A stretch of DNA of 64,000 bases from Dokdonella sp. (GTDB lineage: Bacteria; Pseudomonadota; Gammaproteobacteria; Xanthomonadales; Rhodanobacteraceae): positions 1-64,000 of the forward strand of contig NZ_JAHCAQ010000015.1 in NCBI RefSeq assembly GCF_019634845.1, in the 5' to 3' direction. Below, piece by piece: positions 643 through 7,185 of this stretch. Every line of letters begins with the position of its first letter. Within the stretch, counting starts at the first letter, position 1. Position numbers and translations under genes: made by a program. The notes beneath the pieces are model-generated. The model worked only from the letters and a program-made list of their open reading frames with translations. It had not been told where the DNA came from and made no database searches.

Positions 643-715
643 GATCCACTCCTAGTCAGTGGGTTGTGGTCAGCGGCGCGCCGGGGTTGCCGCCCCGGTG
701 CGCCGCGCTTGTCTC

Positions 716-913
716 TCAGGCCGCCTGCGCGTTCGCGCTGTTGAGGGCGGCGTCGAGCATGTCGAGCAGCATGCGTTGCTTGGAACGCGGCAGGGCCGCA
801 ATGCGTTCGATCTGCGCGTGCAGCTTCGGTGCCGGTCCACGCTTGCCGATCTTCTTCGCCGCTTCGCCGAACAGCGCGTCCAGCGACAGGTCGAGGGCTT
901 TGGCGATCGGTCG
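716..913 (-). pseudogene. C-terminal fragment of XRE-type regulator
   Basis: On the minus strand about 65 codons read IAKALDLSLDALFGE, then KRGPAPKL, then ERIAALPRSKQRMLLDMLD, ending at a TGA at 716-718. This is the usual end of small XRE/cI-type repressors: the last helix of the HTH domain, a linker, and a C-terminal helix. The HTH beginning is missing, because upstream of about 910 the sequence becomes RHS repeat on the opposite strand. The fragment therefore has no start and no recognition helix. It is followed by the SymE gene in the same direction, suggesting an ancestral XRE-symE operon cut by the RHS cassette. Confidence 0.7.
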
Positions 914-931
914 GTCGGGCGCCTGACGCGG

Positions 932-2626
932 ATGCTCGATGCGAGCGGATCGACGACCTGGTGCTACGATCACCGCGGCAACGTGATCAGCAAGACGCAA
1001 GTCACGCATGGCTCGACCTATGTCCTTGGCTACGAGTACAACGTGGCGGATCGGCTCATGGCGATCGCCTACCCGGACGGCGTGCGAGTGGAGTACACGC
1101 GCGATGCGCTCGGTCGCGTCAGCGCGCTCAAGTTGCGCCTCACGCCGGGCGGGGCGTTGACGACGGTGGTCTCGTCGATCACCTACCTGCCGTTCGGTCC
1201 GGCGCAGTCCTATGCGTTTGCGAGCGGCGGTCAGTCGCTGGCGCTGACCTACGACCAGAACTACTGGCTCAACGACGTCGGCGGCAGCGTGCTGAACCTG
1301 CACTTGTGCCGCGATGGGCTCGCCAACATCACGCGTCTCGCGGCCAGCGCGCCCGCGTGCACGGCCAGCGCCATCGAGCAGTACGGATACGACGCGCTGT
1401 CCCGCTTGACACTGGTGCAGAACGGCAGCGGCGGGACGGTCGAACGCTACAGCTACGGCAAGACCGGTGATCGGCTGAGCAAGACCGTCGGCAGCACGAC
1501 GACGAACTACAGCTACACCCTGGCCACCAGTCATCGCCTGCTCGGCGTGGGCAGCGACGCTCGCGATTACGACAACGCCGGCAACCAGACCAGCGGCAGC
1601 AGTCCGTCGCGAACGTGGACCTTCGACGATCGCAACCGCATGGCCGCGTATAGCCAGTCAGGCATCGGGTTCGGGCGCAGCGGAAGTTACGACTACAACG
1701 GGCGCGGCGAGCGCGTGTTCAAGGATGGGCGCGGCCCGCTGGCGCAGCACAATTCCGCCCATTTCGTCTACGACGAAGCGGGCCTGCTGCTGACCGACAA
1801 CGGCAACGGCAATCCCAATCCGACCGACTACGTCCATGTCGACGGGCGGCCGCTTGCGCTGGTGCGCAACGGCAGCATCTACTACGTCCATTCGGACCAG
1901 CTCGGTACGCCGCGCGCGGTCACGGCAGCCGGCAGCGCGACGCCGCTGTGGAGCTGGAGTTTCGCGGGCAACCCGTTCGGCGAGCAGGCGCCGACCGGGA
2001 GTTTCACCAACATGCTGAGGTTCCCGGGCCAGTACTACGACCCGGAGTCGGGTCTGCACTACAACTACTTCCGCGACTACGAGCCGGGCACGGGGAGGTA
2101 TGTGGAGAGTGATCCGATTGGGTTGGATGGAGGATCGACGACTTTTGGTTATGCGCTTGGCTCTCCTGCGTTCTATTTCGATACCTTGGGGCTGGATGCC
2201 CAGTGTGAAAATTGTGATGATAGAGTTACATCCAAACGCGTGCAGAGATGGTGTGACCAGTTCGGAAAGCGAATTCGAGATAAAAGTCTCGCGAGTTGTG
2301 TAAGAAATAAATGTCAGACTGCGCAAGTGAAATGCAAGTCGCGTTGCCTTGTAAAATGCGATGGTGATGCGGCTCCTAGATCTGGAGGATTTGCAGGCCT
2401 TTCAAGAAGGGGTGACAACCATATCGTTCTTTGCATGGACACTGATCCAAGTCGCGATCAAGCTGGTGGCGGGTGGGGCGCAGTAATCATTCATGAATTT
2501 TCGCATCTTTGCGGTTGGATGCATTGTGATGGGGGAGGGGTTCCTAGAGACCACACGCCAAGTGAGTGCAAGCGCGCGAAAGGTGGTGATCCGCAAGGCG
2601 GAGTTTGTCGATATGATCCGGAATAG
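932..2626 (+). CDS. 5'-truncated RHS protein with metzincin-like toxin tip
   Basis: The YD/RHS repeat signal begins at 914 (VGRLTRMLDASG) and 932 is the first in-frame ATG in it. The frame is open to 659, but codons before about 910 are antisense to an XRE gene. Repeats (YDHRGNV, YGYDALSRL, YDYNGRGERV) lead to the RHS core (FPGQYYDPESGLHYNYFRDY) and a DPIGL/DTLGL boundary near 2190. The 140-residue tip after it is Cys-rich and A+T-rich and contains HEFSHLCGWMH (2492-2524), an exact HExxHxxGxxH zinc-peptidase signature. No Met-turn follows. No signal peptide, PAAR or VgrG part is present, so this is probably a displaced tip cassette, silent unless recombined onto a full-length rhs gene. Peptidase activity is inferred. 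Confidence 0.8.
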   Translation: MLDASGSTTWCYDHRGNVISKTQVTHGSTYVLGYEYNVADRLMAIAYPDGVRVEYTRDALGRVSALKLRLTPGGALTTVVSSITYLPFGPAQSYAFASGGQSLALTYDQNYWLNDVGGSVLNLHLCRDGLANITRLAASAPACTASAIEQYGYDALSRLTLVQNGSGGTVERYSYGKTGDRLSKTVGSTTTNYSYTLATSHRLLGVGSDARDYDNAGNQTSGSSPSRTWTFDDRNRMAAYSQSGIGFGRSGSYDYNGRGERVFKDGRGPLAQHNSAHFVYDEAGLLLTDNGNGNPNPTDYVHVDGRPLALVRNGSIYYVHSDQLGTPRAVTAAGSATPLWSWSFAGNPFGEQAPTGSFTNMLRFPGQYYDPESGLHYNYFRDYEPGTGRYVESDPIGLDGGSTTFGYALGSPAFYFDTLGLDAQCENCDDRVTSKRVQRWCDQFGKRIRDKSLASCVRNKCQTAQVKCKSRCLVKCDGDAAPRSGGFAGLSRRGDNHIVLCMDTDPSRDQAGGGWGAVIIHEFSHLCGWMHCDGGGVPRDHTPSECKRAKGGDPQGGVCRYDPE

Positions 2627-2960
2627 GCTTGCAGCTCTTTGGTGCTCTATCTTGTTGGTGGGATGCTGTCCGGTGCAACAGAAATCAACGGATAACAAAA
2701 TTGCTCCGATAGTTGATGGGGACGCTTTTCGAGCAGGTCTATTTCTTGACTATTGTTGGAGCGCGAAACATTTTGTAAGCGTTGATTTTGCGAAGGCAAC
2801 GTTCATACAGTTTGTCAATGATGATTTTGCGATGTACCGATTGAGCTCTGGGCCAAGCGAAATGTTGTACTGCGCCTATCCGCTGAATAACGCGGAGTTG
2901 ATCCAGAAGGCGAAAGAACTTGGCATATCATACTCGGTGTATATTTCAGTGCTTCCTTAA
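2613..2960 (+). CDS. Small lipoprotein, candidate immunity protein
   Basis: Encodes 115 residues. The start is set at 2613 because a ribosome site (GGAG about 9 bases upstream) precedes MIRNRLAALWCSILLVGC, a lipoprotein signal with lipobox LVGC. The mature part is acidic with a few aromatic residues and has no recognised domain. It overlaps the RHS stop by 14 bases and shares its low GC, the standard arrangement of toxin tip and cognate immunity gene. A lipoprotein location would fit a toxin acting in the periplasm or cell envelope. The immunity role is inferred from position. Confidence 0.65.
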   Translation: MIRNRLAALWCSILLVGCCPVQQKSTDNKIAPIVDGDAFRAGLFLDYCWSAKHFVSVDFAKATFIQFVNDDFAMYRLSSGPSEMLYCAYPLNNAELIQKAKELGISYSVYISVLP

Positions 2961-3253: not shown

Positions 3254-3856
3254 ATGGCAACGATCCTCGGTCCGCAGCGGCTTGGTCCGCTCACGCCACT
3301 GGTCGGCGAATGGGAAGGCGACGACGGCGTCGATCTGTCGTACCACAACAAGGACGACGTGACCGGCGAAACCGGCTACTTCGAGAAGGCCTGGTTCCAC
3401 CCGATTCCGCTGCAGGAAAACGGCAAGCAGACGCTGGAAGGTCTCAACTACAAGATGACCGCCTGGCGCCATGGCGAGGAGGCGATGGACCCGTTCCACG
3501 ACGAGGTCGGCTACCTGCTGTGGGAAAAGGCGAGTGGGCAGGTCATGCGCGTGGTCGTGTTCGGCCGCGGCATCGCGCTCATTGCGGGCGGCAGTGCCAA
3601 GCCGCGCGACCGCAAGCTCAATTTCGTCGCTACGCCCGGTGATCCGTCGTATGGCATCCTGCAGAACAAGTACCTGCTCGAACGCGCCGAGCTCAAGGGA
3701 TTCGACAGCACGTTCACCTGCAATGCCGACGGCACCTTGAGTTATACCTCGGACCTCGTGCTCAAGCTCGCCGCCACCGGCCAGCAGATGCACCACACCG
3801 ATCGCAACACGTTGCATCGGGTGGCGAGCCTGCATCCCGGCAGCGCGCACGCCTGA
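3254..3856 (+). CDS. Nitrobindin/FABP-like beta-barrel protein
   Basis: Encodes 200 residues with no signal peptide, so cytoplasmic. GPLTPLVGEWEGDDGVDLSY near the N terminus resembles the opening L-G-W-G strand of nitrobindin (DUF1794/THAP4-like) ten-stranded barrels, which bind heme and react with NO or peroxynitrite. The body alternates short hydrophobic strands, and a His cluster (QQMHHTDRNTLHR) near the C terminus could supply the axial ligand. It is longer than minimal nitrobindins (about 160 residues). GAGGAGG lies about 9 bases before the start. The family is likely, heme binding inferred. It stands alone with no operon partner. Confidence 0.6.
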   Translation: MATILGPQRLGPLTPLVGEWEGDDGVDLSYHNKDDVTGETGYFEKAWFHPIPLQENGKQTLEGLNYKMTAWRHGEEAMDPFHDEVGYLLWEKASGQVMRVVVFGRGIALIAGGSAKPRDRKLNFVATPGDPSYGILQNKYLLERAELKGFDSTFTCNADGTLSYTSDLVLKLAATGQQMHHTDRNTLHRVASLHPGSAHA

Positions 3857-4038
3857 GCGGTGGCGGGCATGGCGGGTCCGGCACCACGCCGCTGAGCGTC
3901 AGGCGCGGGGCGACGGCTCCAGTCGACCACAGCGGCGTCGGCGCGGTATGGCGTGGCGGCTTGCGCCGAGCGCGCCGACCGGTGCCGTATGCGCCGCGGC
4001 GCCATCCACGCGCCGTGGCGAGGCAGCCGCCGATACGC

Positions 4039-4068
4039 AAACGGCCCCGTCGCAGGACGAGGCCGTTT
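4039..4068 (-). terminator. Hairpin after small basic protein gene
   Basis: AAACGGCC (4039-4046) pairs with GGCCGTTT (4061-4068), and an inner CGTC/GACG stem lengthens it. It lies 57 bases past the stop of the minus-strand gene at 4125-4277 and 183 bases past the plus-strand gene. On the minus strand the stem ends in a short T run. It may terminate both convergent genes. Confidence 0.5.
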
Positions 4069-4124
4069 CGCGTCGCGAGCGGCTCGATGCCGCATCACGG
4101 CATGTGCGCGCAGCGCGCGGCAGC

Positions 4125-4277
4125 TCAATGCGCCGGCGCGGTTTCGGGCATCTTGGTCATGCCGCTGGCTTCCATCGTGCGGGCCATCTTCTTGGCGCGC
4201 TTGAGCGCACGCTTTTCCTCGAAGCTGTGTTGCGGTTTCTTCTTGTCGTGGTGACGCTGGTGGTCTAGGCCCTTCAT
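4125..4277 (-). CDS. 50-residue highly basic small protein
   Basis: Reads MKGLDHQRHHDKKKP..., 50 codons, then TGA at 4125-4127. A near-ideal ribosome site (AGGAGG, 5 bases of spacing) precedes the ATG. The composition is Lys/Arg/His-rich: a KKK cluster, a central FEEKRALKRAKKMARTME helix, and a short neutral tail. No signal peptide or membrane segment. Similar small basic proteins occur in Xanthomonadales, but I know of no assigned function. Nucleic-acid or ribosome binding is only suggested by charge. Confidence 0.65.
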   Translation of the reverse strand: MKGLDHQRHHDKKKPQHSFEEKRALKRAKKMARTMEASGMTKMPETAPAH

Positions 4278-4413: not shown

Positions 4414-5646
4414 TCAGTCGCCGCCCGCACGATGGGCCGGGAGCCGTCCGCCGATGCGCAGCTCGCGCACGAGCGAGCCGCCGATCCAGTAGCACAGCGC
4501 CGCCGCATCGTGCACGCGCCAGGCGACGCAATCGGCGCGCAGGCCGACCGTGAGGCGGCCGCGGTCGGCAAGGCCGAGTGCGCGCGCCGCATTGACGGTG
4601 GCGCCGCGCAGCGCCTCGGTCGGCGTGAGGCCGAACAGTGTGCAGGCCATGCCCAGCGCCAACCGCAGCGACAGCAGCGGCGAGGTGCCGGGGTTGAGGT
4701 CGGTGGCGACCGCCATTGCCACGCCTGCTTTGCGGAATCCATCGATCGGTGGCAGCCGTGTTTCGCGCAGCGCGTAGTAGGCGCCCGGCAGCAGCACGGC
4801 GACCGTGCCGGCCGCGGCCATCGCGGCGACGCCGTCGGCAGCGGTCCATTCGAGATGATCGGCCGACAGCGCCGTGAATTCGGCGGCGAGCGCCGCGCCA
4901 CCCAGGTCGGAAAGCTGGTCGGCGTGCAGCTTGACCGGCAGGCCGAGTTCGCGCGCGCGTGTGAACACGCGGCGCACCTGGGCGGGCGAGAACGCAATCC
5001 GTTCGCAGAAGGCGTCGACCGCATCGGCGAGTCCCGCGCTCGCCGCCGCTGGCAGGATCGCGTCGCAGACGTGGTCGATGTAGGCATCGGCGCGGCCCGC
5101 GAATTCGGGCGGCAGCGCATGCGCCGCCAGCAGCGTGGTGCGCACGCTCACGCCCAGTTCGGCGGCGAGGCGGCGCGCGACGCGCAGCATCTTGAGCTCG
5201 CTGGCGACGTCGAGGCCGTAGCCGGACTTGATCTCGAGCGTCGTCACGCCATCGGCGAGCAACGCGCGGGCGCGCGGCAGCGACTGCGCGAACAGCGCAT
5301 CGGCGTCGGCCGCGCGCGTGGCGCGCACGCTCGCGGCGATGCCGCCGCCGCTGCGCGCGATCTCCTCGTAGCTGGCGCCATGCAGGCGCTGCTCGAATTC
5401 GCGCGCACGGTCGCCGCCGAACACGAGGTGGCTGTGGCAATCGATGAGACCGGGCGTGACCAGTGCGCCAGCAAGACTGTCCTCGTGCCGCGCCGCATGT
5501 CGTGCGGGCAGGCCCGCGCGCGGACCCGCATAGACGATGACGCCATCGCGCCAGGCCAGCGCGCCATCCTCGACGAGGCCAAGACCATCGCCTTCCAGCG
5601 TGGCAAGGCGACAGTCCAGCCACAGGCCATCCCAATTCGTGTCCAT
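4414..5646 (-). CDS. hutI: Imidazolonepropionase
   Basis: Encodes 410 residues, the usual HutI length. The enzyme hydrolyses 4-imidazolone-5-propionate to N-formimino-L-glutamate, the third step of histidine degradation. Amidohydrolase metal motifs are present: [38 protein letters not shown], and the later TDLNPGTSP. The start at 5646 ([12 protein letters not shown]) is chosen because upstream codons in the same frame run into the divergent hutF. Divergent from hutF across 156 bases, so the two probably share a control region. hutH and hutU are not in the window. Confidence 0.93.
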
Positions 5647-5802
5647 CCCGGTGCGCTCTCCGCGGTCGGCCTGCAATGGCGGCATTATTCCAGAGCGCGG
5701 CCCGCGCCGACCGTGACGCGACCGCGCGCCGGCAGTGGCGGCGGCTGGCATCGGCCATCGCGCATCGCTAGGCTGCAGGCTTTGTGCAGGCGGAGTATGA
5801 GC

Positions 5803-7185
5803 ATGAGCGAGCAAATCCTGTTTGCCGACTACGCCTGGCTGGCTGCCGGTTGGCAGCAGGCCGCCGCGCTGCGCGTGGTCGATGGCCGCATCGAGCCGGG
5901 CGATGCCGCGGCCGGTGGCGTGCGCGTCGGCCGCTACGTCGTGCCCGGCATGCCGAACCTGCATTCACATGCGTTCCAGCGTGCGATGGCGGGGCTGGCC
6001 GAGCGCCGCAGTCTTGGCGGTGATGGCGAGGCCGCAGCCGCCAACGACAGCTTCTGGACCTGGCGCGAGGTCATGTATGCGTTTGCCGGCCGCATTGGCC
6101 CGGATGAACTGCAGGCCATCGCCGCCCAGCTCTATGTCGAGATGCTCAAGGCCGGCTATACCCAGGTCTGCGAGTTCCATTACCTGCATCACGCGCCCGA
6201 TGGTCGCGCCTACGCCGATCCGGCGCAGATGTCGCTGGCGCTGATCGAGGCAGCGCGCGAAGCCGGCATTGGCCTCACCCTGCTGCCGACGCTCTACATG
6301 AGCGGCGGCTTCGATGGCCGCGCACTGACCCCGCGCCAGCGCCGCTTCGGGCATGAGGTCGATGCGTTCCTGGCCCTGGTCGAACGCTTGCGCGCGCTCG
6401 AATCGCCGCTGCTGCGCGTCGGCCTGGCCCTGCATTCGCTGCGCGCGGTGCCGCCCGCCGCGATGCGTGAGGTGCTCGCCAGCGAGCCGGCGCGCAGCGG
6501 GCCCATCCACATCCACATCGCCGAGCAGCTCGGCGAGGTGCAGGACTGCCTGGCCCTGCGCAAGGCGCGGCCGGTCGAATGGCTGCTCGACCACGCCGCG
6601 GTCGATGCGCGCTGGTGCCTCGTCCATGCCACCCATCTGACCGCGGCCGAGACGCGGCGCCTGGCCGCCACTGGTGCCGTCGCCGGCCTGTGCCCGACCA
6701 CCGAGGCCAATCTCGGCGATGGCCTGTTTCCGCTGCGCAGCTGGCTCGATGCCGAGGGTGTGTTCGGCATCGGCTCGGACAGCCACATCTCGGTGTCACC
6801 GGTCGAGGAGCTGCGCTGGCTCGAATATGGCCAGCGCCTGGTCAGCCACCACCGCAACGTGGCGGCGAGCGCCGCATCGCCGAGCACGGGGCAGCTTCTG
6901 CTCGCACGGGCGCTGGCCGGTGGTGCGCAGGCCAGCGGCGTCGAACTCGCCCGCCTGGATCGCGGCCGCGCCGACCTCGTCGTGCTCGACGACAGCGCCG
7001 CGCTGCTGGCCGGTCGCGACTGCGCCAGCGTCGTCGACAGCTGGCTGTTCGCCGGCAATTGCAATCTCGTGCGCGACGTGATGGTCGGTGGCCACTGGCG
7101 CGTGCGTGAGTTCCACCACCGCGACGAAGCGCGCATCGCCGCGCGCTATCGCACCGTGGTGGAGGCGCTGCAACGCGAGGCCTGA
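5803..7185 (+). CDS. hutF: Formimidoylglutamate deiminase
   Basis: Encodes 460 residues. HutF converts N-formimino-L-glutamate to N-formyl-L-glutamate plus ammonia, the Pseudomonas-type branch of histidine degradation. Motifs are [12 protein letters not shown] (metal HxH), [18 protein letters not shown] and [19 protein letters not shown] 5803 is preferred to 5797 because GGAG at 5792-5795 gives 7-base spacing. It acts directly on the HutI product made by the divergent neighbour. A formylglutamate hydrolase (HutG) would complete the path and is not seen here. Confidence 0.93.

Follow-up and report, generated by a model that had tools for sequence, protein, structure and literature searches.

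A cysteine-rich, predicted zincin-fold tip on an RHS remnant in Dokdonella sp. and its relatives paired with predicted lipoproteins in Myxococcota

In a Dokdonella sp. assembly (3.26 Mb, 27 contigs, 90% complete), the first 64 kb of contig 7, hereafter the window, raise the question of what is encoded at the 3' end of an open reading frame (ORF) at 659-2626 (+), in which RHS repeats and then Rhs_assc_core are followed by a tip of 144 residues. Metallopeptidase tips of RHS toxins are already known as a kind (PMC3482391; the publications cited here were available in part, and statements about them apply to those parts). A sequence-only reading of the locus had proposed a toxin tip with a metzincin-type zinc signature and a lipoprotein immunity partner. 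The tip is probably a small, secreted-type zinc metallopeptidase of zincin fold, carried by RHS proteins at their C-terminal end as a toxin against bacteria, and the strongest new point, judged from sequence, is a partner common to RHS tips and to myxobacterial lipoprotein pairs.

Motif and composition of the tip

The RHS core at 908..2191 (+) is a 5'-truncated piece of 428 codons that matches RHS_repeat (PF05593, 1.2e-9) and, at about 1970-2194 (+), Rhs_assc_core (TIGR03696, 69.1 bits versus a cut-off of 32.5). A variable tip directly behind these repeats and this domain is the arrangement that marks an RHS polymorphic toxin; the earlier placement of the tip at the core boundary held, with the correction that what remains of the RHS gene has lost its 5' part. 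The tip (2192..2626, +), a predicted zincin metallopeptidase toxin domain by its predicted fold and a 32-member family alignment, is coded at 2192-2623 with its stop at 2624-2626. The length of about 140 residues given before was thus close, and the start at 2190 is out of frame.

The motif HEFSHLCGWMH (2492..2524, +) is read in the same frame as the 659-2626 ORF, at the coordinates given before, and holds H101, H105 and H111 as likely zinc ligands, E102 as the likely catalytic Glu, and C107. It is the sole HExxHxxGxxH in the window, both strands considered, where 0.02 were expected and 2 of 100 shuffles had one, and shuffling of the tip residues produced the motif in 1 of 200,000 trials. The tip carries 13 Cys in 144 residues versus 3 in the 428 of the core (Fisher p 3e-6) and its region has a G+C content of 48-51% versus 65-68%, two contrasts already pointed out by the sequence-only reading, and ones that an exchangeable RHS tip cassette would be expected to show.

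Relatives and conservation of the family

Starting from the single tip sequence, a search of 398 genomes of the order (E up to 0.1) matched 63, from which the window's own, G324 and G364 were kept, while 60 other genomes and further G364 matches were dropped as chance because of low scores or short spans, or for their stops or frames, with 30 loci read in alignment. The two true relatives, L002 and L003, are 28-29% identical and both stand directly behind RHS cores. A profile of the three sequences led to 13 loci in public genomes, one being the same place as L003; in a search of 233 genomes 7 matched, with 3 kept and 4 weak ones dropped, and in a search of 369 genomes 2 matched, with the window's own kept and G737 (two stops) dropped. 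Of 195 Myxococcota genomes, 27 matched the profile of 13, at 32 places in all: 3 are RHS tips, 27 are genes of the stand-alone kind, and 2 (G956, G974) were left out. Among 299 genomes drawn from the order only the window's own held the family (G324 and G364 were not among the matches and may not have been drawn), and among 247 genomes from the phylum of the L038 genome only the L038 genome itself did. The family therefore looks rare outside Myxococcota, although misses are possible in the 233-genome, Myxococcota, order-draw and L038-phylum searches, for which first-look candidates were partly scored in many genomes.

Searches with the single tip returned no relatives in the PDB, plasmids, phages, PADLOC, PHROGs or genome contigs (13 stretches, 0 relatives), and no member was found in viral contigs scanned for the family or in plasmid searches with two relatives. 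A partial literature search yielded no publication describing the family, and the available part of PMC10433427 names no such toxin.

The final alignment (A3) has 32 rows, 9 RHS tips and 23 stand-alone members; the broken L050 and L079, which are also excluded from the counts of 25 below, and L070 and L077, which are near L069 and L075, were left out. Invariant in 32/32 are C5, C36, H101, E102, H105, C107, H111 and P118, followed by V117 (31/32), G108 (30/32) and W109 (29/32). Retention of His, Glu, His and His in all members carries far more weight than the motif by itself. C21, C41, C48, C56, C81 and C139 are each present in 29-31 of 32, and a count of exactly 12 Cys is shared by 21 of 23 stand-alone members, L047 (5 Cys) being the exception in the family; the conserved positions and the constant number in stand-alone members suggest that the Cys form disulfides. 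The absence of a visible Met-turn noted earlier extends to the family: the window tip has no Met after H111, and the tails past the third ligand, 14-34 residues long, contain Met in 6/32 with no common place. Where a Met-turn might be expected lies GVP (G116-V117-P118; 2537..2545, +), whose well-kept Val and Pro may have a structural role.

Predicted fold and named peptidase families

The sequence-only reading would have been contradicted by a predicted fold that keeps the three His apart; the predicted fold is zincin-like. Its best matches are aspzincins, followed at lower rank by mini-zincins and metzincins; most matches are peptidases, and YbeY, named as a metallo-endoribonuclease, is also among them. 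The weak Pfam matches of the 32 members are likewise zincin peptidases, and no non-peptidase family was found to claim the tip in Pfam and NCBIfam scans. Profile matches in the PDB were not significant: A1 reached a single unrelated chain (E 0.1), A2 myroilysin (E 0.2), and A3 acutolysin and myroilysin (E 0.15-0.22) besides an unrelated chain (E 0.89).

The metzincin pattern HExxHxxGxxH/D, exact in the window as claimed, is not fixed at its Gly in the family (30/32), and a textbook metzincin (MA(M)) was rejected for lack of a Met-turn. The Asp third-ligand motif of aspzincin M35 is GTxDxxYG; this has no counterpart in the tip, unlike the M35 aspzincins deuterolysin and AsaP1, and Aspzincin M35 (PF14521) was rejected at 15.9 bits against a cut-off of 30. 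The family resembles mini-zincins in having no Met-turn and a minimal C-terminal part, but the Zincin_1 (PF06262) motif HExxHxxGxxD does not apply, as the third ligand is His in 32/32 and the window tip has no PF06262 match. Tox-MPTase, HopH1-like and PVC-metallopeptidase profiles were absent among the matches listed for 13 members (10 families, E up to 10) and among the best 20-25 Pfam families listed for 32 members (E up to 1); HMMER filters drop weak matches, and Tox-MPTase4, the sole Tox-MPTase profile confirmed in the searched set, had no match in three genomes holding the family. As far as profiles reach, the family passes no visible Pfam or NCBIfam cut-off and is itself unnamed, which agrees with the earlier prediction of a tip outside named peptidase families.

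Downstream partners and the stand-alone form

The nine RHS-tip members are those of the window, L002, L003/L046 (one place, in G364), L038, L039, L047, L078, L081 and L082, and Rhs_assc_core is over cut-off before the tip in all of them (8/8 besides the window). In the window, a predicted immunity lipoprotein of 115 residues (2613..2960, +) begins within the last codons of the toxin, with a 14-base overlap, and carries the lipobox LVGC (2655..2666, +); the oxidising site of action and lipoprotein partner proposed earlier stand as predictions. Its product has no Pfam match up to E 0.1 and no relative in 229 other genomes searched. The ORF behind the RHS tip has a hydrophobic N-terminal stretch in 8/9 loci by a rule laxer than the stricter lipobox rule used below, with N-termini chosen by hand and internal starts in L002, L039 and others; that of L081 has a lipobox-like motif only, from an uncertain start. 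Most of these ORFs overlap the tip gene or start within about 15 bases, the gap being about 145-160 bases in L038 and L046, with another small ORF between in L046. None has a Pfam match over cut-off; the ORF of L002 (695-1462, -) matches PilP just below it (24.7 versus 25.6 bits). In L038 a second RHS-like frame, recognized by eye, lies right behind tip and partner (3641-4223, +), as in arrays of displaced tip cassettes, and in the planctomycete member L047 a Laminin_G_3 match shares the frame of RHS core and tip (4714-6312, +).

In the 27 stand-alone Myxococcota genes, two of them broken, the domain follows a mostly lipoprotein-like leader: 18 of 25 intact toxins pass the stricter lipobox rule, 2 only a hydrophobic-segment rule and 5 neither. 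A partner gene follows all 27, with a 10-base overlap in 16 of 26 loci listed, and of 25 intact partners 23 fit the lipobox rule, compared with 12 of 286 control frames, a rough control that included toxin, partner and non-gene frames. These rules are our own and not SignalP; under the stricter rule each in-frame start ahead of the domain was allowed for the toxins, and for controls only starts within the first 40 codons. In this form the domain is probably a lipid-anchored protein in its own right, accompanied by another lipoprotein.

The stand-alone partners are homologous to the genes behind the RHS tips L081 and L082 (best E 6e-24 and 4e-12); no homology was found to the gene behind L078 or to the immunity candidate of the window, and RHS-tip downstream ORFs other than those of L081 and L082 gave no match to the common partner. 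Extra partner copies that resemble orphan immunity genes lie upstream at L048 (4153-4779) and L061 (747-1370). Together with the homologous partner, these copies favor a toxin and its immunity protein as the best interpretation of either format, and a partner found in both formats would place both proteins outside the cytoplasm. Mean identity is 51% among stand-alone forms and 28% among RHS tips, and the long end branches of the tree are mostly RHS tips, those of stand-alone members being shorter. Repeated switching between RHS and lipoprotein forms is not claimed from the 4 changes on the tree, since a single lipoprotein clade was not rejected (approximately unbiased test, p 0.108) and long branches meet.

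Comparison with known systems

The C-terminal zinc metallopeptidase of VgrG2b kills from the periplasm and is stopped by the envelope-targeted immunity protein PA0261 (PMC6899460). The tip resembles it as a predicted HExxH zinc peptidase toxin that would act in the periplasm, fused to a delivery protein and followed by a gene for putative envelope-targeted immunity; for VgrG2b the immunity protein is a predicted lipoprotein in Enterobacteriaceae. It differs in that VgrG2b, compared here by description only, is delivered through VgrG and the type VI secretion system (T6SS) and is assigned by its authors to subclan MA(E) (PMC6899460). VgrG2b is not among the 50 fold matches listed, which excludes nothing. 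Tox-MPTase1-5, HopH1-like and PVC-metallopeptidase are likewise zincin-like HExxH tips of RHS and other polymorphic toxins, but their motifs in the published table are other than that of this family (PMC3482391). The mini-zincin Acel_2062 (Zincin_1, PF06262, provisional M94) has HExxHxxGxxD with Asp as third ligand, is presumed intracellular and has a C-terminal Tyr that may replace Met (PMC3890501), whereas the tip family has His as third ligand, many Cys and probable exported forms. The Listeria metzincin protease Mtz, secreted and with HExxHxxGxxH/D, has its gene directly followed by a lipoprotein gene (Tim, TIMP-like) as here, but it possesses a Met-turn, belongs to a phage-derived locus and is not an RHS tip (PMC8235301).

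SitA toxins of myxobacteria are lipoproteins passed by outer membrane exchange and have a downstream immunity gene; they carry an escort domain of about 375 residues and cytoplasmic nucleases (PMC5562445, PMC8546572). In the Myxococcota genes read here, by contrast, only a short stretch separates the probable lipid-bearing Cys from the domain. The available part of PMC5562445 contains neither 'protease' nor 'peptidase', and that of PMC8546572 names no peptidase toxin.

The window copy and its surroundings

Residue 3 of the window core piece aligns to residue 1029 of a 1652-codon RHS frame in L046, a locus of the same genus with DUF6531 upstream; by this comparison the RHS N-terminus lacks about 1000 residues, and no complete N-terminal delivery part was found in the same gene. 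Neither a second RHS core nor the T6SS sheath gene VipB was found in the genome, about 90% complete, and T6SS delivery in this genome was rejected for that lack of VipB. The truncated core, the absence of another and the missing sheath gene indicate that the window copy is probably an orphan tip-plus-immunity cassette.

The 5' part of the 659-2626 frame is antisense to a possible small gene (716..931, -), perhaps a small-regulator remnant, which abuts the truncated core and was recognized by eye only, with no Pfam match. Nearby lie a SymE toxin gene (418-642, -; PF08845, 62.8 bits versus 29) and, at the contig start, an A+T-richer ORF with hydrophobic stretches and no Pfam match (2-367, +), which may have served as immunity gene to a former tip that has since been lost. 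A THAP4-like heme-binding beta-barrel protein is encoded at 3254-3856 (+) (PF08768, 1.6e-24).

Proposed function and alternatives

From the computed motif, family conservation, predicted fold, partner adjacency or overlap and the partner common to both architectures, we infer a mechanism in which the tip, delivered at the end of an RHS protein, would bind zinc through H101, H105 and H111, use E102 for catalysis without a Met-turn and be held by disulfides. It would act in the envelope of the target cell, in the periplasm, where it would cut an envelope protein to toxic effect, and the product of the overlapping lipoprotein gene, located in that compartment too, would shield the producing cell. 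Among predatory bacteria of the Myxococcota, this domain would have turned into an independent lipid-anchored protein with another lipoprotein as its partner.

The fold and motif leave the substrate undefined, and with YbeY among the fold matches a zincin-fold hydrolase that cleaves no protein, acting for instance on peptidoglycan or another envelope polymer, would explain site and partner equally well and would still be an envelope toxin with exported immunity; it is considered unlikely, as the fold matches are mostly peptidases and the weak zincin matches in Pfam are peptidases too. Less likely still is an ordinary envelope protease with a lipoprotein inhibitor or folding partner, for which the RHS fusion would be incidental and no weapon involved. 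The closer relationship of the stand-alone forms and their shorter branches are what a housekeeping enzyme might show, but the presence of the family in 27 of 195 Myxococcota genomes is patchy, 3 of these have the RHS form, the domain stands behind RHS cores in 9 loci, differing exported ORFs follow different RHS tips, and extra partner copies occur.

A separate matter is whether the window copy itself has become an inert relic with no function today, a tip cassette that was displaced and lacks its delivery part. This would be compatible with the family reading and is given slightly less than an even chance: the N-terminal loss relative to L046 and the lack of another RHS core favor it, while the tip and immunity frames are intact and the invariant residues retained.

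For the zinc metallopeptidase toxin preferred here, the unusual build lies in three His ligands, the missing Met-turn, usually 9-13 Cys and an invariant Cys two residues past the second zinc His. A wider and more tentative view, which we hold to be possible, is that one disulfide-rich, Met-turn-less zincin family serves both as RHS tips in several phyla and as an escort-free, envelope-acting myxobacterial lipoprotein toxin and antidote that could be passed by outer membrane exchange. Such a toxin, if it does act in the envelope, would require no route to the cytoplasm and would not need an escort domain. The common partner ties the stand-alone lipoprotein pairs to RHS tips, and thereby opens the questions of killing from the envelope and of transfer by outer membrane exchange.
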